Shown here: positions 9,905 through 17,751 of the stretch, one piece after another | Layout of the letters: each line of letters begins with the position of its first letter | Position numbering within the stretch: the first letter of the stretch is position 1 | Assembly: GCA_030682385.1 (NCBI GenBank) | Contig: JAUXOG010000041.1 | Coordinates: 1-42,207, forward strand | Reading direction: 5' to 3' | From: Bacteroidota bacterium | GTDB taxonomy: Bacteria; Bacteroidota; Ignavibacteria; UBA10030; BY39 | Length of the DNA stretch: 42,207 nucleotides | The notes under the pieces: model-generated | Told to the model about the DNA's origin: nothing | What the model saw: only the letters and a program-made list of their open reading frames with translations | Databases searched by the model: none | Made by a program: the position numbers and the translations under genes

Positions 9905-10834
9905 CTAAACCTCAAGCACTTTTTTGCGGCTCGAAAGTAGCTCGAAGTATTTTTCCTTCATCGAATCAGAAAGAAAGCTCTTTGCAATAGTATCTTCCCA
10001 CAAATTAAAAACTGAGGTTAACTTTGTAAGGACATCCTGGATAACTGGTTCCTTTAACTTGAGTCGTTCATTTCCGAAATATTCTATCAGCAATTTTCTG
10101 GTAAGATTCCGCTTTTTCCCTCCAAGTGGCAGAGCTATTTCTTCCGTTACATTACGGAGGATAATCGTTGTGTTCAGTAAATCGTATGCTGGTGAAAGTT
10201 CGATTTTCCTTTCCCTACCTATCAGGGAAAAGTTTTTCAGGTGCATGTCTTCATTGCCGACCAAGAAATTAAAAATAGTAAGACGAAATAGTTTCAGCTT
10301 TTCTACAAGCGGGAAGGTGCAAAATTTGTCAATGACCGAAACGACTTGTTCCATGCTGGAATCATACTTAGTATCACGCGTTTTGCCTGATAGCTGCGCA
10401 AAATCTTCAACTGAATGCTTCCCTTTCCGGGCAATACGATCGAATCGTTTGATGAAGTATGTTAATGATTTATCCTTTGAATTAACCAAACCGTGTATTG
10501 GTACCTCAATACCGAATGCGTCGGCAAGTTTCATCGTGAGGTCTTCGTTCTCCGGCACTTCAAAAAAATGGCTTTGCGGCTTAAGAATGTATGTACCCCC
10601 ATTATCCACAATCTCAAATTTTCCTTGTGAAATGTTTAGCACAGCGCTCAGCTTCGGTTGAACACCTTGAATGGACATCTTCGAAGCCCTGGCAACAGCC
10701 TCGTTTCTCTGTTCCTCGGCAGAATAGGGAATATCCTCAAGACTCTTTAACTGACGGGCTAACAGTTTCAATCCTTGAGAAGAATAATGAGCCCCAGGCT
10801 GAATTTCTTCGTATGTAATCGGACAGCGGCTCAC
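9905..10834 (-). CDS. hipT: HipT-like serine/threonine kinase toxin (HipA core domain)
   Basis: A 309-residue HipA-type kinase lacking the usual N-terminal subdomain, which is a separate gene just upstream: the HipBST arrangement. Visible motifs are the Gly-rich loop SIQGVQPKLS (S54), the ATP-binding lysine region YILKP (K85), IKRFD, the catalytic loop GNEDMHLKN (D196) and the metal-binding AYDLL (D218). All catalytic residues look intact. The start is GTG, overlapping the hipS stop as GTGA, with GAGGAA just upstream. E. coli HipT phosphorylates TrpS; the target here is not deducible. E. coli HipT has two serines in the loop (SIS), whereas this one has SIQ, leaving a single phosphorylatable serine. 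Confidence 0.88.
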   Translation of the reverse strand: MSRCPITYEEIQPGAHYSSQGLKLLARQLKSLEDIPYSAEEQRNEAVARASKMSIQGVQPKLSAVLNISQGKFEIVDNGGTYILKPQSHFFEVPENEDLTMKLADAFGIEVPIHGLVNSKDKSLTYFIKRFDRIARKGKHSVEDFAQLSGKTRDTKYDSSMEQVVSVIDKFCTFPLVEKLKLFRLTIFNFLVGNEDMHLKNFSLIGRERKIELSPAYDLLNTTIILRNVTEEIALPLGGKKRNLTRKLLIEYFGNERLKLKEPVIQDVLTKLTSVFNLWEDTIAKSFLSDSMKEKYFELLSSRKKVLEV

Positions 10835-11142
10835 AATATTTCCTCGACTGTAACAGCACCGACAAGGTCTTGCCCAACGGCGACCAATTGGCTGAAGAAA
10901 TCATTTTTGTCGATTTTTCTTTGACGCAGCAAACCAACTAACATTACACCTACGTTAAGAAGACCATCATAAAAAGGTGGGAAGCAATCGAAACGAATAT
11001 AACGATGTTCTATCGGCATGGTCAGCGAAACAGGTTCACCTTGGTAGGTGTCAAGATATCGAAATATGTATTCCGTTCCTCGCACCCTTTCCTCCAATAC
11101 GCCGGCTTCTATGCCCTTCACAAACACCTTAGCTCTTCTCAT
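10831..11142 (-). CDS. hipS: HipS-like small protein (free-standing HipA N-terminal subdomain)
   Basis: About 103 residues that match only the N-terminal subdomain of HipA (Couple_hipA-like): FPPFYDGLLNVGVML, LLRQRKIDKNDFFSQL and AVGQDLVGAVTVEE. In the E. coli HipBST system the equivalent HipS neutralises HipT. I place the start at ATG 11142 because GAGG precedes it at normal distance. A longer frame from ATG 11160 adds six residues but has no Shine-Dalgarno. It overlaps hipB by 14 bases and hipT by 4, so the three genes form one translationally coupled unit. Confidence 0.85.
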   Translation of the reverse strand: MRRAKVFVKGIEAGVLEERVRGTEYIFRYLDTYQGEPVSLTMPIEHRYIRFDCFPPFYDGLLNVGVMLVGLLRQRKIDKNDFFSQLVAVGQDLVGAVTVEEIL

Positions 11143-11374
11143 CAGATGCCTCGAGTTCATAGTCTTGCATGAGTGAACTGTCTAACTTGATTAGAATGTT
11201 AAGTGCGTATAAGATTTTTCTAATCGTATCGAACTGAATTGTTTCCTTCCCTTTCTCAATGTCGAACACTGCTGTCTTCCCTACACCTGCTAATTTTGCA
11301 AGCTCTCCTTGGTTCAGTCCAGCTTTTTTTCTGTGATACCTGATAATCTGTGCTATATTTTGGCTTTTATTCAT
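11129..11374 (-). CDS. hipB: HipB-like Xre-family antitoxin/repressor
   Basis: An 81-residue protein made almost entirely of an HTH_3/Xre fold: IIRYHRKKAGLNQGELAKLA, VGKTAVFDIEKGK and FDTIRKILYALNI (residues 10-62). The short acidic tail (YELEASDEK) is typical of HipB-type proteins. It is the first gene of the hipB-hipS-hipT operon and very probably represses it. Candidate inverted operator halves lie 12-56 bases upstream of its ATG. Confidence 0.87.
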   Translation of the reverse strand: MNKSQNIAQIIRYHRKKAGLNQGELAKLAGVGKTAVFDIEKGKETIQFDTIRKILYALNILIKLDSSLMQDYELEASDEKS

Positions 11375-11385
11375 AATTTTCCCGC

Positions 11386-11430
11386 TTAAACGGTATTCTT
11401 CATTTTATTTATCTTAAAATACTGTTTTAA
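11386..11430 (-). promoter_or_regulatory. Candidate HipB operator
   Basis: TTAAACGGTATT (11386-11397) faces AATACTGTTTTAA (11418-11430) as an imperfect inverted pair. The second half lies within its own small palindrome TTAAAA-N5-TTTTAA (11414-11430). Their place directly upstream of hipB suggests autoregulation; binding is inferred. Confidence 0.4.
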
Positions 11431-11508
11431 CAGGACAATGTCAAGAATATTATCGCTATAGCAGTAAATTAAAGTATAAACCCTGAGTGGAGCCGCTTTA
11501 ACCACGTT

Positions 11509-11653
11509 GTCGAAGGACGCCGTCCTGAGCGAGTCCGAGTAAAACAAGGACGAGTCGAAGAACGCTGTCCTGAGCGAGTCCGAGTAAAACGAGGACGAGT
11601 CGAAGGACGCTGTCCTGAGCGAGTCCGAGTAAAACGAGGACGAGTCGAAGGAT
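11509..11653. repeat. 45-bp tandem repeat (3.2 copies) built from a dispersed palindrome
   Basis: Copies start at 11509, 11554 and 11599 with a partial fourth at 11644. Each holds GTCGAAGGAC and GTCCTGAGCGAGTC, the two halves of a dispersed palindromic element, separated by an interposed CGAGTAAAACGAGGAC-type segment. Since 45 is divisible by three, several reading frames stay open through it, but none looks like a protein. It separates the hipBST unit from the restriction-modification genes. Confidence 0.85.
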
Positions 11654-11700
11654 AAGACTCCCAAACAAATTCTCCAACCCTTTTTCCGACTCCATTTCTC

Positions 11701-12414
11701 TCAATACTTCCAATCCACATGACTGACCGGCGTTCTACTTAATTCTTCTTTTAAAGATTTCCACTCTGGTACGAATTTATCCATATAAGCCTTGAATCGT
11801 TCGTTATGATGACGCTCTAACAAATGCACCATTTCATGAACAACAATATACTCTAAACAAATTGGTGTTTTTTTTGCCAATTCTAAATTTAGCCAAATAC
11901 GCTTTGCTCTATGATTACAAGTTCCCCATTTGGTTTTCATTCTTTTAATTCCAAACTCATTGACGGACACTTTCATAATATTTTCCCACTTTGATATAAG
12001 CATAGGTATCGACTCTTTTAACCTTTCACGATACCATTCATCCAAAATGGTTTTCCTCTGTAACCTTGATGAACTCGGTCGAACATATAACTCAATATGT
12101 TCATGTTTCAATACAACTTTGGGAACTGACCGAATTTCAATAACCTTTATAAGATATCTCCTGCCGTTATAAAAGTGACTTTCATTCGAGATATAGTCTC
12201 TCGGTGTTTCTCTTACCTGATTTTTAAATTTAATCTGATGTTTTTTAATCCAACCTAATTTAGAAATTGCAAATACTCTAATCGTATCCAAGCTCAACCG
12301 TGATGGCGCAGATATTCGAACACGTCCCGTAGGCGGGTGAACGCTCAGATGAATGTTTTTAATGTGTTTCTGAATTACCTCAACGGTAATATCGCCCAAT
12401 TTTAACTCGTGCAT
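11701..12414 (-). CDS. YgjP/SprT-like zinc metalloprotease of the type I RM operon
   Basis: A 237-residue YgjP-family (DUF45, M48-like) metallopeptidase. The zinc motif HEMVHLLERHHNERF lies near residue 190, preceded by the family signature KTKWGTCNHRAKRIWLNLEL. The start is ATG 12414, one base after the hsdR stop; a longer frame from TTG 12441 overlaps hsdR and is less likely. Members are repeatedly found as the last gene of type I restriction operons, but their role there is not established; proteolytic control of HsdR is one possibility. The downstream neighbour is the 45-bp repeat array. Confidence 0.85.
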   Translation of the reverse strand: MHELKLGDITVEVIQKHIKNIHLSVHPPTGRVRISAPSRLSLDTIRVFAISKLGWIKKHQIKFKNQVRETPRDYISNESHFYNGRRYLIKVIEIRSVPKVVLKHEHIELYVRPSSSRLQRKTILDEWYRERLKESIPMLISKWENIMKVSVNEFGIKRMKTKWGTCNHRAKRIWLNLELAKKTPICLEYIVVHEMVHLLERHHNERFKAYMDKFVPEWKSLKEELSRTPVSHVDWKY

Positions 12415-12415
12415 T

Positions 12416-15400
12416 TTAATATTCTTGCTGCTTCTTGACAATCGGGAAAATTCTTTCTACCTCATTAACATCCTGAAGTACTTTTAATAACGCCGCTTTT
12501 ATCTCGTTCTCTTTTTGAAGGTTTCCTCTGAAATCAGCTTTCCTGCTATAAATAACCGCTTCATGACAAGCAAGCGCCTTCTCCTGATTTTCTTGGAGGT
12601 TATTATATAAAACTCTTTGCGCTTGTGTTTTCAATTCGGCAGGAATGTTACTGCCTTTGCCTTCATTAACTTGCTTTGCCAACTCGGCAATTTTCTTTAA
12701 GTACTCCTGATAATTGACAGCTTTCGCTTTTCTCTCTTTGATAATTTCATCCAACAGTTTCGACATACGATCAAAGAATGCCGGGTCTATCAAATGTTCT
12801 TTTATGATTTTCTTCCGCACATTATTTTCAATAGTCTCAGCAACTGCTTCCTGATTGCTTTGAATTCCTTGAGGTAAGCTGTTGACAGCGTTGGCTATAC
12901 CGGAATTTACAATTATATCCAACAGCGTCATATCCCCGAACGGAGAAACAACTCTTGGGTCTTCAGCTTGAATATAGTTATCAATCAAGTGCCGCATATC
13001 GGCTTCATAAGTCTTCAGGTCAAGAGTTTCACCGCTTGCTTTACGGATTTCTTCTCGTAGGTTCAAATAAAAATCAATCTTGTTTTTGATGTCTTTGATT
13101 TCTTTATCGTTATAACCCGCCTGTGCTAATTCGGCGGAGATGTTTGCATAAGCGCGGATGAAAGCAACAGCCGATTTATATAATGCTGTCCGTCTTACTT
13201 CGGTTTCCTTCAAGGCATCCTGTTTTTCTGTATTACCGCAAAAGTATCTTAGATATGCCAATGTATCTTTATGCGGCGGAACAGGTTCACATAACAATGC
13301 AATAGCTTCAAGCGCTTCGTCTAATCGTTCTTGACCTTTCTTCAGCCGATTTTGCAGCATTATATCGCATTCTTCTTTTTTGAATGTGTCATAATCCAAC
13401 TCCGAAGTATATACAGATACAGCATCCTCAACTTTTTTAAATAAATCTTTGTAATCAACTATATATCCAAACTCTTTATCGTCTGTATCCAAGCGGTTCA
13501 CGCGGCAAATCGCCTGAAACAATCCATGGTCCTGCATATTCTTATCAATGTACAAGTATGTACAAGGTGGGGCATCAAATCCAACAAGAAGTTTATCCAC
13601 AACTATCAAAAGTTTCATGTTTGCTGGTTCGCCAATAAACTTTGCTTTTATCTTATCCTCGTATGTTTCAGATTTAGTTTTATTCGGGTGAGCAACAACA
13701 TCTTTTAAAAGATCTTCATAAATCCGATAGATATATTCTTTTTCAGTTTCAGTATTTTCTCCTGTATCTTCCAACACGATATCTTTATGTGAAGGGTTGT
13801 AAGATGTTACTACAGCACATTTCCCTTTCAATTCGGTTTGATTAAAAAATTCAAAATACCGGCAAGCATCGTATATTCTGGAAGCAATAAGGATAGCATT
13901 GCCCCCACCTGAACTCAATCTTGGCTTAACATTAAAATCTAATACGACATCATTTACTATTTTTTCCATCCTGCTTCGTGAACTCAGTACCGCCTGCATA
14001 GTTCCCCATCGCTTTTTCAGTTCCGACTTCTGAAAATCATTCAGCCCTTTAGTCTTTGCCTCAAACCATACATCAATTTTATCGGGAGACGATATTTTCT
14101 GATCGATATCTCTTGCTTCATATACTAAATCACGTATTACCTTATCTTCCACGCCTTCGTTGAATTTGTACGTATGTATATATTTGCCAAACACTTCTAA
14201 ACTTGTTTGTTTATCTTGTTTCAACAAAGGAGTTCCAGTAAACCCGATAAATACGGTATTAGGCAGCATGGCTTTCATTGTTTTATGTAGCTTACCGCTC
14301 TGTGTGCGATGGCATTCATCTACAAATACGAATAAATCTCCGACAGCTTTTGATGGACTGTTTTTCAGTTCTTCAATAAATTCATCAAAATTATCTACAT
14401 CTCTTTTTCCAAACTTATGTACGAGCGAACAGAGTAAGCGAGGTTTTGCTTGCCCCAACTGATTCATCAGGTCTCTACCGCTTCGTGTGCGATATATTTC
14501 TTCACCTGTTTCGGTAAAGACTCTTTCAATCTGCTTATCGAGTTCATCGCGATCTGTTATTATGGCGACTTTCGCATTCGGATTATTTTCCAATATCCAT
14601 TTTGCCAAAAGCACCATAACAATGCTTTTACCACTGCCTTGCGTATGCCAGATGATTCCGCCTTCACGTGTGCGGACATGTTCCTGTGCCGCTTTTACGC
14701 CGAAGTACTGGTGTGCTCGTGGAAGTTTTTTTATTCCGCCGTCGAACACTACAAAGTCATAGATAAGTTCAAGAAAACGCTTCTTGTTGCACAGCTTCTT
14801 TAAGTATTTATCTAACTGAAGTAAGCTATCGTCGTGTTTATCTTCTTTCCATTTCAAATAATACTTTTCCGGTGTACCGATTGTTCCGAAACGCAAACCC
14901 TCAGTATCGTTTCCGGCAAATATAAACTGAACTGTTGAGAAGAACGATTGTATAAATTCCCTTTGCTGGTTTACGATGCTCTGTCTTATTCCATCACCGA
15001 TAGAAACAGTGCTTCGTTTTAATTCTAAAACTGCAAGTGCAATTCCGTTTACGTACAAAACTATATCAGGACGTTTCTCTCTTTCACCCTGTATAGTTAC
15101 TTCCTCGGCGAAAGCAAAATCATTTGAATCAAACTCACTTGGATTCCAGTTGATGAGTTGTACTGTCTCAAAGTTCTCGCCTGCTTCAGCTTTTACTTTT
15201 ACACCATAACGTATAAGCTGAAAAACATTCTTATTGTTTGTGTACAAACTCTCGTTATAGTTGTTGGCAGTTGTACGCAGCTCGTGCAATGCTTTGTTTA
15301 TAAGCGTTTGACTGTATCCTTTTTTGAGAAGGTATTTTTTGAGTATATCTTCTTCAATGTTGCTGTTGCCGATGCGGTCTTCCCAATTGCCGAGATATTC

Positions 15401-15475
15401 GTATTTTAGTTGTTTGTCGAATAGTTTTACAATTCGGTTTTGGGTTAATCTTTCTATCTGTCCAACGTCTGCCAT
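12416..15475 (-). CDS. hsdR: Type I restriction enzyme, R subunit
   Basis: A 1019-residue HsdR, of normal length. The N-terminal nuclease domain carries a PD-(D/E)xK centre with D137 (RPDIVLY) and E151/K153 (VLELKR). The SF2 translocase motor follows: Walker A TQGSGKS (278-284), DECH (386-389), FTGTPLL and a late helicase motif QAICRVNRLD. The C-terminal helical part would dock to HsdM/HsdS. It translocates and cuts DNA bearing unmethylated recognition sites. The start ATG overlaps the fic stop as TAATG, so hsdR expression is coupled to fic rather than directly to hsdM/hsdS. Confidence 0.95.
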   Translation of the reverse strand: MADVGQIERLTQNRIVKLFDKQLKYEYLGNWEDRIGNSNIEEDILKKYLLKKGYSQTLINKALHELRTTANNYNESLYTNNKNVFQLIRYGVKVKAEAGENFETVQLINWNPSEFDSNDFAFAEEVTIQGEREKRPDIVLYVNGIALAVLELKRSTVSIGDGIRQSIVNQQREFIQSFFSTVQFIFAGNDTEGLRFGTIGTPEKYYLKWKEDKHDDSLLQLDKYLKKLCNKKRFLELIYDFVVFDGGIKKLPRAHQYFGVKAAQEHVRTREGGIIWHTQGSGKSIVMVLLAKWILENNPNAKVAIITDRDELDKQIERVFTETGEEIYRTRSGRDLMNQLGQAKPRLLCSLVHKFGKRDVDNFDEFIEELKNSPSKAVGDLFVFVDECHRTQSGKLHKTMKAMLPNTVFIGFTGTPLLKQDKQTSLEVFGKYIHTYKFNEGVEDKVIRDLVYEARDIDQKISSPDKIDVWFEAKTKGLNDFQKSELKKRWGTMQAVLSSRSRMEKIVNDVVLDFNVKPRLSSGGGNAILIASRIYDACRYFEFFNQTELKGKCAVVTSYNPSHKDIVLEDTGENTETEKEYIYRIYEDLLKDVVAHPNKTKSETYEDKIKAKFIGEPANMKLLIVVDKLLVGFDAPPCTYLYIDKNMQDHGLFQAICRVNRLDTDDKEFGYIVDYKDLFKKVEDAVSVYTSELDYDTFKKEECDIMLQNRLKKGQERLDEALEAIALLCEPVPPHKDTLAYLRYFCGNTEKQDALKETEVRRTALYKSAVAFIRAYANISAELAQAGYNDKEIKDIKNKIDFYLNLREEIRKASGETLDLKTYEADMRHLIDNYIQAEDPRVVSPFGDMTLLDIIVNSGIANAVNSLPQGIQSNQEAVAETIENNVRKKIIKEHLIDPAFFDRMSKLLDEIIKERKAKAVNYQEYLKKIAELAKQVNEGKGSNIPAELKTQAQRVLYNNLQENQEKALACHEAVIYSRKADFRGNLQKENEIKAALLKVLQDVNEVERIFPIVKKQQEY

Positions 15476-16614
15476 TATCTAAACAGGTTTATATATTTTT
15501 CAAATGAGAAAATCCGATTTCGTTTAAATCCGGTGGTTTCTTTAATAATTTCTAATCGTATAAAATCTTCAATCACTCGTAACGCTGTTGAGATGTTAAT
15601 ATTAAGAACTTTGGCAACATCCTGACTATCGGTGATCGGGTTGCTATAGAGATATTGCAAGAATGATTTTGCCTGCAATGTTTTTTTCCCTAAGCCCATA
15701 ATTTTCTGTTCACATTCCTGACGCAGTATAATTATAGAACGAAATGTTTGAATAGAATTATCGGCTGTTTGTCGTACACCTTCCATGAAAAATTTTATCC
15801 ATTGTGTAAGGTCGTTATGCGTTCTTACTCTTGTTAGATTATCGTAATAAAGTGATTTATATTTTTCAAAGTAATCCGATAAATACAATGTAGGTTTAAC
15901 CAACAAACCTTTACTCACCAGATACAAGGTAATTAACAGTCTGCCAATTCTGCCGTTACCATCTAAAAACGGGTGAATGGTTTCAAACTGATAATGTGCT
16001 ATGCCGATTTTAATTAAATGAGGCAATGGTGTTTGTTCGTTATGAAGAAAATTTTCTAAATCACCCATCAAATCCGGTACCTCGTCGTGATGCGGTGGTA
16101 TAAAAACAGCGTCGTTCAGTGAGCTTCCGCCAATCCAATTTTGGCTAGTACGAAATTCACCTGGCTGCTTGTGCTTACCTCTGACACCTTGCAGAAGTTC
16201 GGAATGAGCTTGGTTCAACAATCTGTTCGATAAAGGAATCTGGGTGAGTTGCTCAATAGCATTGTTCATTGCCCGAATGTAATTCTGAACTTCCTGCCAA
16301 TCGTCTTTATTCTCTGGAAGTATGTATTCTTGTTTTTGCAGGGCTTCTTCTATGTTTGTATGCGTTCCTTCAATACGACTGCTTTTGACACCTTCTTTTG
16401 CAACATGCATTTTAATGAAAAAATCCACATCGGGTATTAGTTGCGAGAAAGCATTCAGTTCGCCTAATTTTATATCGGCTTGGCTTAGCAGCATATTTAA
16501 TTCCGGATTGCTGATTTGCCAATTTATATTAATCGCATTGGGACTAAAACTTTTGTACTGATATTGGCTCTTATAGATGCCTGCTTTAAAATCTTTTATG
16601 TCCATAGTCGTCAT
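15475..16614 (-). CDS. Fic-domain protein with winged-helix tail
   Basis: I use ATG 16614 (379 residues); the frame extends to a TTG at 16629, and ATG 16605 is also possible. The active-site motif HPFLDGNGRIGR lies at residues 214-225, complete for AMP transfer. An inhibitory-helix motif of the S/T-xxx-E-G type, SSRIEG, lies at residues 78-83, so activity is probably autoinhibited (class II). The C-terminal 60 residues (TDSQDVAKVLNINISTALRV) resemble a winged helix, common in Fic proteins found in restriction loci and possibly a DNA-binding autoregulator. It sits between rhuM and hsdR, with two palindromes over its start region. Confidence 0.9.
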   Translation of the reverse strand: MTTMDIKDFKAGIYKSQYQYKSFSPNAININWQISNPELNMLLSQADIKLGELNAFSQLIPDVDFFIKMHVAKEGVKSSRIEGTHTNIEEALQKQEYILPENKDDWQEVQNYIRAMNNAIEQLTQIPLSNRLLNQAHSELLQGVRGKHKQPGEFRTSQNWIGGSSLNDAVFIPPHHDEVPDLMGDLENFLHNEQTPLPHLIKIGIAHYQFETIHPFLDGNGRIGRLLITLYLVSKGLLVKPTLYLSDYFEKYKSLYYDNLTRVRTHNDLTQWIKFFMEGVRQTADNSIQTFRSIIILRQECEQKIMGLGKKTLQAKSFLQYLYSNPITDSQDVAKVLNINISTALRVIEDFIRLEIIKETTGFKRNRIFSFEKYINLFR

Positions 16615-16624
16615 TTCGAGTTTC

Positions 16625-16690
16625 TGCAAATATAATTATTTGTATTTGCATTTACAACCTTTTCTGCAAGTATGTGAAATCGTATTTGCA
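16625..16690 (-). promoter_or_regulatory. Twin palindromic operator over the fic promoter
   Basis: Two copies of a 26-bp inverted repeat lie exactly 40 bases apart: TGCAAATA-N10-TATTTGCA (perfect arms, 16625-16650) and TGCAAGTA-N10-TATTTGCA (one mismatch, 16665-16690). On the minus strand a Bacteroidetes-type promoter can be read through them: TTG at 16657-16655, 20 bases, then TATATTTG at 16634-16627. The proximal palindrome covers this -7 element, the classic geometry for repression of fic-hsdR-ygjP. Who binds is unknown; the winged-helix tail of Fic is a candidate. Confidence 0.6.
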
Positions 16691-16845: not shown

Positions 16846-17751
16846 TTAAGCCTGGTCCGGATATATCTTTTTCCATATGTAGTTTTTAAATATTTTTCTC
16901 GGTAGTTTTTCGATCCAGTTTTTCATGTGCATGGGTTTATGTTGTAGAGCTTGCAATTCGGCAAATTCCAGGTATTGATTTACGATACGGTTTAGCTGAT
17001 TTAATTCTTTTTCGTTTAGATAATTTTTTGCCACTAAAACATCCTGCATTTTTATTCCCTCACCCGGGTAGTTTGTTAAACCCATAAAAGGTTTTGAAGC
17101 ATCTGCCCTGAGCTTAATAAGTTCTGCTGCGGTATGGGCATGAATTGCCCAATGAAATTTATTTTGTACTGCTGCAAAAAACTGTTGTGTCAGATCGATG
17201 TTAGCAACATAGTCAATACTGGTTGCATAGATATCGCAAATCTTCCGATAAAATACTTTTCCGCTGCTTCGTATGTCGCGGATTCGTGTAAGAAGTTCGT
17301 CAAAATAATTATCGCGCGCCTGTTTCAAACGCTCGTCATCAAGCACGAAACCTTTGATGATATATTCCTTTAATCGCTGAGTTGCCCATTTACGAAAGTG
17401 TGTACCTATATGTGATTTCACCCTATAACCTACGGAAATGATCACATCTAAATCATAAAACTCTGTGTCGCGGTTAACTCTTCGTTTACCTTCTTGCTGA
17501 ACTGTTCGGAATTTCCGAACAGTTGCTTCAGCGTCTAATTCTCCCTCTTCATAAATTTTGGTAATGTGTTCACTGATTGTAGATTTTGCTTTCTGAAACA
17601 GCTCGCTGATTTGACTTAGCGAAAGCCATACAGTTTCGCCCTGCATATGTACATCTATTTTTGTGGTGCCTTGCGGTGACTGGTAGATTAGAATTTCGCC
17701 TTTGTTTTCCATTTTGCTTTCTTTTTTGTTAAGTGTTTCTTTATTCAGCAT
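16846..17751 (-). CDS. RhuM-family protein with altered C-terminus
   Basis: A 301-residue member of the virulence RhuM family. The N-terminal half has the typical IYQSPQGTTKIDVHMQGETV and WLSLSQISELFQKAKSTISEH helix-turn-helix-like region, then RKFRTVQQEGKRRVNRDTEF and YDLDVIISVGYRVKS, a Bro/KilA-like signature. The family usually continues past the HMKNWIEKL segment for some 35-50 residues. Here the sequence turns into KLPRKIFKNYIWKK and stops, so the C-terminus seems replaced or truncated. The start ATG 17751 overlaps the hsdS stop as TAATG; ATG 17712 (MENKGEIL) is an alternative. The function of RhuM is unclear, although it is frequently embedded in type I RM operons. Confidence 0.85.
   Translation of the reverse strand: MLNKETLNKKESKMENKGEILIYQSPQGTTKIDVHMQGETVWLSLSQISELFQKAKSTISEHITKIYEEGELDAEATVRKFRTVQQEGKRRVNRDTEFYDLDVIISVGYRVKSHIGTHFRKWATQRLKEYIIKGFVLDDERLKQARDNYFDELLTRIRDIRSSGKVFYRKICDIYATSIDYVANIDLTQQFFAAVQNKFHWAIHAHTAAELIKLRADASKPFMGLTNYPGEGIKMQDVLVAKNYLNEKELNQLNRIVNQYLEFAELQALQHKPMHMKNWIEKLPRKIFKNYIWKKIYPDQA

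Follow-up and report, generated by a model that had tools for sequence, protein, structure and literature searches.

The window, that is, the whole stretch of 42,207 nucleotides analysed here, carries two adjacent palindromes in the promoter region of a fic gene that is followed by hsdR and ygjP, and it is probable that the Fic protein itself binds this pair as its own operator, with two dimers lying side by side and repressing fic-hsdR-ygjP. This prediction, made from sequence, draws on the sites themselves, their rarity in the genome, the 40-41 bp layout, the copies placed after fic and ahead of hsdR, the covariation of half-site letters with the Fic recognition helix, and the predicted winged helix-turn-helix (wHTH) fold. 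From these features we infer Fic binding, repression rather than activation, cooperativity, and what would release Fic. The features considered here are:

11701-12441, minus strand: ygjP-like (SprT-type) metallopeptidase gene, third gene of the unit, overlapping hsdR
12416-15475, minus strand: hsdR, second gene of the unit, overlapping the fic stop codon
15475-16605, minus strand: fic, class II Fic AMP-transferase (Fic_N, Fic and C-terminal winged HTH; from Pfam, PADLOC and structure), first gene behind the predicted operator
15478-15690, minus strand: codons of the C-terminal wHTH of Fic, residues 308-378, from the predicted structure (AlphaFold)
15556-15594, minus strand: codons of the Fic recognition helix, residues 340-352, in which S341 and R345 track the letters of the predicted operator
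16625-16650, no strand: proximal palindrome (predicted operator copy 2), TGCAAATA-N10-TATTTGCA, overlapping the fic -7 box
16627-16634, minus strand: TATATTTG, candidate Bacteroidota-type -7 promoter box within the proximal palindrome, from sequence
16655-16657, minus strand: TTG, a tentative -33 element 20 bp upstream of the -7 box, from sequence
16665-16690, no strand: distal palindrome (predicted operator copy 1), TGCAAGTA-N10-TATTTGCA
16846-17751, minus strand: rhuM, last gene of the upstream hsdM-(GIY-YIG)-hsdS-rhuM group

The palindrome pair and the fic promoter

A preliminary description placed two palindromes just upstream of fic, 40 bp apart; both are found there, at 16625-16650 and 16665-16690, and the 40 bp is correct whether counted start-to-start or centre-to-centre, leaving 14 bp between the two. 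Each palindrome is 26 bp long, with 8-bp arms and a 10-bp spacer. The proximal one (TGCAAATA-taattatttg-TATTTGCA) is perfect, with arms pairing at 8/8 positions; the distal one (TGCAAGTA-tgtgaaatcg-TATTTGCA) pairs at 7/8, with one mismatched pair, and so is not the exact TGCAAATA palindrome that both had been taken to be. Six matches with up to three mismatches occur in the window, compared with 0.72 +/- 0.74 in shuffled sequence (none of 100 shuffles reaches six). In a pattern search of the 3.38-Mb genome, the two palindromes at the fic promoter are the sole matches with at most one mismatch, which rules out a general host box; at this threshold hsdM, hipB and the rest of the window and genome have no extra copy, and none lies elsewhere in the hsdM-(GIY-YIG)-hsdS-rhuM group.

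TAnnTTTG is the consensus of the Bacteroidota-type -7 promoter box. Read on the fic strand (minus), the order is TTG (16657-16655), 20 bp, TATATTTG (16634-16627), 21 bp, and the ATG at 16605. The proximal palindrome had been described as covering a TTG-N20-box promoter; this applies to the box, which lies inside the palindrome, while the TTG falls just outside it. A TTG at this distance from the -7 box is present in just two of 17 TG-type arrays. In 11 of the 17, the window included, the half-site nearest the promoter also reads as a -7 box of the form TAnnTTTG. From its sequence, fic most likely starts at ATG 16605 (MDIKDFKAG, where homologues begin) or at ATG 16614; TTG 16629, the start given in the list of open reading frames, is unlikely, as it falls inside the palindrome. 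Residues of Fic are numbered here from a codon 1 at 16611, and 2 is subtracted from each number if the start is ATG 16605.

The upstream hsdM, GIY-YIG open reading frame, hsdS and rhuM run in the same direction as fic, with a gap of about 240 bp between rhuM and fic. Of the earlier proposal that fic-hsdR-ygjP is induced apart from hsdM-hsdS, the separate unit is supported by its overlapping genes and the gap of about 240 bp after rhuM.

Other features of the neighbourhood may be recorded here. RhuM (16846-17751, minus strand) matches many PADLOC candidate-defence (PDC-S05) models. At 9905-11374 (minus strand) a hipB-like HTH gene, a separate open reading frame for the HipA N-terminal part (Couple_hipA) and one for the HipA C-terminal part lie in a row, a three-gene layout that resembles HipBST more than the two-gene HipBA. 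The interval between hipB and ygjP (11386-11720, minus strand) contains in-frame tandem repeats open in several frames, which read SFDSSSFYSDSLRTA in one frame and RPRFTRTRSGQRPST in another.

The 40-bp layout beside other fic genes

The sample of fic homologues comprises 80 loci found in one genome scan plus 30 taken from whole genomes, at 50-74% identity; the records are named Bacteroidota, Ignavibacteria, Gammaproteobacteria, Spirochaetes, Elusimicrobia, Armatimonadetes and others, and many are metagenome bins, for which taxon names can be wrong. Arrays were scored as two palindromes with four mutually similar half-sites, a gap of 4-16 and a lag of 28-52, against dinucleotide shuffles. Every shuffle is beaten by 59 of 106 fic upstream regions, 57 of them at a lag of 40-42 (40 in 42 loci, 41 in 14 and 42 in one). 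A z of at least 4 at lag 40-42 is reached in 51 of the 106 regions; in control windows from the same loci it is reached at any lag in 11 of 634, two of these at lag 40-42. With the gap fixed at 10 and a score of at least 40, there are 26 arrays at lag 40, four at lag 41, one at all other tested lags together and none in shuffles. The four half-sites are about equally conserved (7.3 and 7.2 of 8 for the inner, 7.0 and 6.9 for the outer), and the binding units may be spaced by the 18 bp between half-sites within a palindrome or by the 22 bp between palindromes. The median distance from the end of the proximal palindrome to the start codon is 21 nt.

One of these loci, L002 (74% identity, from a close relative, and likewise in the order hsdS-fic-hsdR), bears a strong array (z 9.2); its gene between fic and hsdR (L002:2770-3552) encodes HATPase_c_4 and Fic-like_C domains and is possibly an extra regulator. 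Four further Fics (L132, L135, L137 and L150) have the same lag, and the layout is also found in cultured Sediminibacterium salmoneum, Pedobacter glucosidilyticus, Runella zeae and Flavobacterium amniphilum. A third palindrome, one lag further upstream, is seen in L010, L094, L107 and L112, and L087 has several upstream palindromes together with a downstream pair that shares their half-site. About one quarter of loci have no array within 200 nt on either side of fic, several of them with visible partial arrays, and among more distant Fics (<45% identity) arrays are less frequent. No array accompanies the second Fic of the genome itself (G000:C45, L082). For the more distant plasmid Fics of Synechocystis pSYSX, Picosynechococcus pAQ6, Thermus pVV8, Rhodoferax, Phyllobacterium and Eubacterium eligens no significant 40-bp pair is found, and some of them have palindromes at other lags. 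The Synechocystis gene (L153, pSYSX 87276-98328) is part of a type I restriction-modification (RM) locus, flanked by hsdS and a HigBA-like pair, with a SprT-type metalloprotease after hsdR that echoes hsdR-ygjP of the window.

The search for the palindrome upstream of fic in relatives, which had been suggested as a check, returns the paired layout at 40-41 bp, with letters that vary by locus. These comparisons support the paired palindromes as a conserved candidate operator layout with a fixed lag of 40-41 bp that would fit two adjacent dimers. The spacing had been read as close to four helical turns and a sign of cooperative dimers; the fixed lag fits adjacent dimers. As 40 bp corresponds to 3.8 turns at 10.5 bp per turn, the protein and not exact helical phase probably dictates the register.

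In 18 loci a pair with the same lag lies after fic, and in two loci there are pairs on both sides; loci with a post-fic array otherwise lack an upstream array, often with fic fused into an operon, and the regions upstream of the operon head contain no extra copies in the stretches examined. The gene after the post-fic array is hsdR in L034, L050, L061, L070 and L093, a DNA-methylase gene in L044, and an unrelated, non-RM gene in L043, L055 and L064. Where the array is upstream, fic is followed by hsdR as the RM gene in three cases (the window, L002 and L111), which brings to eight the type I loci with an array ahead of hsdR, and by hsdM in L029, L041, L057, L089, L092 and L094 (L029 and L089 being near-identical copies). 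By similarity search, an RM gene is detected in just eight of 36 upstream-array loci with long flanks; other neighbours are cysS, rsmB/F, tex, acetyl-CoA synthetase and transporter genes. Since no RM neighbour is detected for the majority of fic genes with an array, the predicted operator appears to belong to fic, and the link to restriction to be one use of it. The idea that the array lets methylation precede restriction is not supported as a general rule, with arrays ahead of hsdR in eight loci and of fic-hsdM in six; at the window locus, a delay of restriction until methylation is complete is possible.

In eight loci (L034, L035, L040, L043, L050, L055, L061 and L064) the post-fic array overlaps the final codons of fic, extending from about 25 nt ahead of the stop to 40 nt past it. 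In several post-fic arrays a TTAACTAA-type half-site contains the fic stop codon (TTAGTTAA), such that coding and predicted operator sequence are shared.

Fic as the predicted binder of its own promoter

The fic product (about 376 amino acids) has Fic_N and Fic domains (Pfam). The motif HPFx(D/E)GNGRxxR is present as HPFLDGNGRIGR at residues 213-224, nearly all of which are invariant among 45 homologues, and the N-terminal inhibitory motif (S/T)xxxE(G/N) as S77-S-R-I-E81-G82, in which S77, E81 and G82 are invariant in the same set. The predicted structure (AlphaFold, pLDDT 88) ends in a wHTH, confident at residues 308-378, with helices at 308-323, 329-336 and 340-352 and wing strands at 357-360 and 366-369; over its full length, to residue 378, the model matches SoFic (3EQX, 3ZCN) and Mycobacterium marinum Fic (7CB8) with Z of 36-37. 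By its Fic motif, inhibitory motif and predicted C-terminal winged HTH, the protein is a class II (SoFic-like) Fic. It falls in the SoFic defence family of PADLOC by model match (E 1.1e-119, residues 16-377), for which an anti-phage role is putative; its score against the NCBIfam SoFic equivalog NF046030 is 163.7 bits, below the curated cut-off of 550.

Half-sites agree within a locus and vary between loci; the types include TGCAAATA, TGCAATTA, TGAAAATA, TTTAATTA, TTTAACTA, CTTGACTA, CTTAAATA, AGTAAAATA, TTGACATA and CTCCATTA. Particular recognition helices go with particular letters: STAxRLI with TGC, R without ST with TGA, LPTANSLI with TTTAATTA, KP/KQ-TAN with ACTA, SAYKL with CTTAAATA, PKAAN with GTAAAATA, and NTAS with GACATA. 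Over 46 non-redundant loci, the Mantel correlation of half-site distance is 0.47 with the helix and 0.31 with the catalytic domain; in partial tests it is 0.40 for the helix given the catalytic domain (0/5000 permutations) and 0.16 for the catalytic domain given the helix. The link also persists among pairs less than 60% identical in the catalytic domain (0/3000 permutations). Arg345 is the best single residue of Fic for the link, and Ser341 the third. Half-sites start with TG (G at position 2) in 20 of 22 loci with R345 versus one of 15 without it, an association that is slightly understated because two loci were misread in automatic extraction: by eye, the proximal palindrome is TGACGATA..TATTCGCA in L033 and TGAAAATA..TATTTGCA in L059. 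There are individual switches as well: L077 combines R with TG inside a clade lacking both, and L107 combines KPS with TTTAACTA inside the AYK/CTTAAATA clade. Descent nevertheless accounts for part of the covariation. Many residues outside the helix also score high in plain per-residue mutual information, which, owing to shared descent, is not specific to the helix; a tree of the catalytic domain yields only three well-supported independent helix/half-site pairs, too few for a sign test.

RhuM, HsdS and a HipB-like HTH protein are encoded near the array, and one of these, HsdM or a host factor could in principle be its ligand, with Fic simply one of the regulated genes. This is quite improbable, given that arrays also accompany fic genes around which no RM, RhuM or Hip gene is detected within the stretch, and that the half-site letters track the recognition helix of Fic even when the catalytic domain is allowed for; a global host factor is further opposed by the lack of additional copies in the genome. 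Among the binders first put forward (Fic, RhuM and HsdS), Fic is favoured on the same grounds. Hairpins in RNA or DNA (a terminator of the rhuM group, an attenuator) or chance duplicates of a promoter box would also produce palindromes, and in one pattern scan the distal copy is terminator-like on the plus strand. That strand has no gene at the distal copy, the conserved property is the equality of four half-sites and the 40-bp lag rather than stem pairing alone, and the layout persists in many phyla whose half-site letters resemble no -7 box, all of which makes such an origin exceedingly improbable; an intrinsic terminator or hairpin was rejected on these grounds.

If Fic binds, it might yet act as an activator or local organiser of DNA. 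The post-fic arrays of L043, L055 and L064, which have no RM gene behind them, indicate a role beyond the blocking of a nearby restriction promoter, and the AMPylation activity of CbFic2 is reported to be stimulated by DNA binding (PMC10628234). We consider this unlikely: at the window locus the -7 box lies inside the proximal palindrome, as TAnnTTTG does in the 11 TG-type arrays mentioned above, and the one precedent, CccR, is a repressor (PMC9755527).

Autorepression by Fic is predicted because the proximal half-site doubles as the TAnnTTTG -7 box, such that polymerase would be excluded, and because CccR provides a precedent. In the proposed mechanism, each palindrome would be occupied by one Fic dimer, with one C-terminal winged helix per half-site, and the two dimers would lie next to each other in the constant 40-bp register; that the lag is single and narrow implies that these neighbours are in contact. 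With the -7 box inside the proximal palindrome, bound Fic would block RNA polymerase and hold fic-hsdR-ygjP low until Fic is titrated, degraded or changed in state, so that fic, hsdR and ygjP of the window would be under Fic control apart from hsdM-hsdS-rhuM. A broader scheme is offered as speculation that may well prove wrong: DNA-bound Fic would form a 40-bp lattice whose specificity is set by a few helix residues (e.g., S341 and R345) and has been refashioned repeatedly in different phyla, giving a toxic AMP-transferase control of RM loci, with occupancy coupled to AMPylation state and infection or loss of the locus freeing both Fic and the restriction gene.

Relation to known systems

DNA binding by winged-helix Fic proteins is barely explored, and one autorepressor, CccR, is known. 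Autorepression by a Fic-HTH protein (CccR) and a DNA-responsive Fic (CbFic2, PMC10628234) are already known; what is new is the 40-bp lattice, how widely it occurs and the tie between half-sites and helix. The open-access literature searched contains no report of tandem Fic operators or of Fic as a controller of RM systems, and no account of the spread of the 40-bp layout, of its post-fic position before hsdR or of the relation between helix and letters. For dozens of Fics this predicts an operator, its geometry (a pair of palindromes at 40-41 bp) and which half-site letter goes with which helix residue, and an anti-phage AMP-transferase and a restriction endonuclease may share a single switch.

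CccR of Yersinia pseudotuberculosis is a Fic-HTH autorepressor that binds an inverted repeat near the -35/-10 region of its own promoter, and its dimer is required for DNA binding (PMC9755527); the comparison made here rests on this published description. Like the window Fic, CccR is a Fic AMP-transferase with an N-terminal inhibitory motif and a C-terminal HTH. The window also has an inverted-repeat candidate operator in the promoter of the fic gene, to which binding is putative. The operator of CccR is one inverted repeat with 10-bp arms and a 26-bp spacer, whereas that of the window would consist of two 26-bp palindromes with 8-bp arms, 10-bp spacers and a 40-bp lag. Unlike CccR, which is an injected effector, the window Fic adjoins restriction genes, and no secretion context is seen.

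For SoFic (SO_4266), PMC10628234 gives DNA binding as not demonstrated as of 2023. SoFic (PDB 3EQX/3ZCN) has the same full-length fold as the window Fic (Z 36); the two share 26% identity, and the window protein scores far below the NCBIfam equivalog cut-off (164 versus 550 bits).

The C proteins of RM systems are small Xre-type HTH proteins that bind tandem operators at the promoter of their own gene and the restriction gene. They may be regarded as work-alikes of the window Fic, which is predicted to be an RM-locus protein acting on tandem operators. The window Fic is not of the C type: it is a large AMP-transferase of about 376 amino acids with Fic_N, Fic and wHTH parts, and its array is kept where no RM gene is detected.
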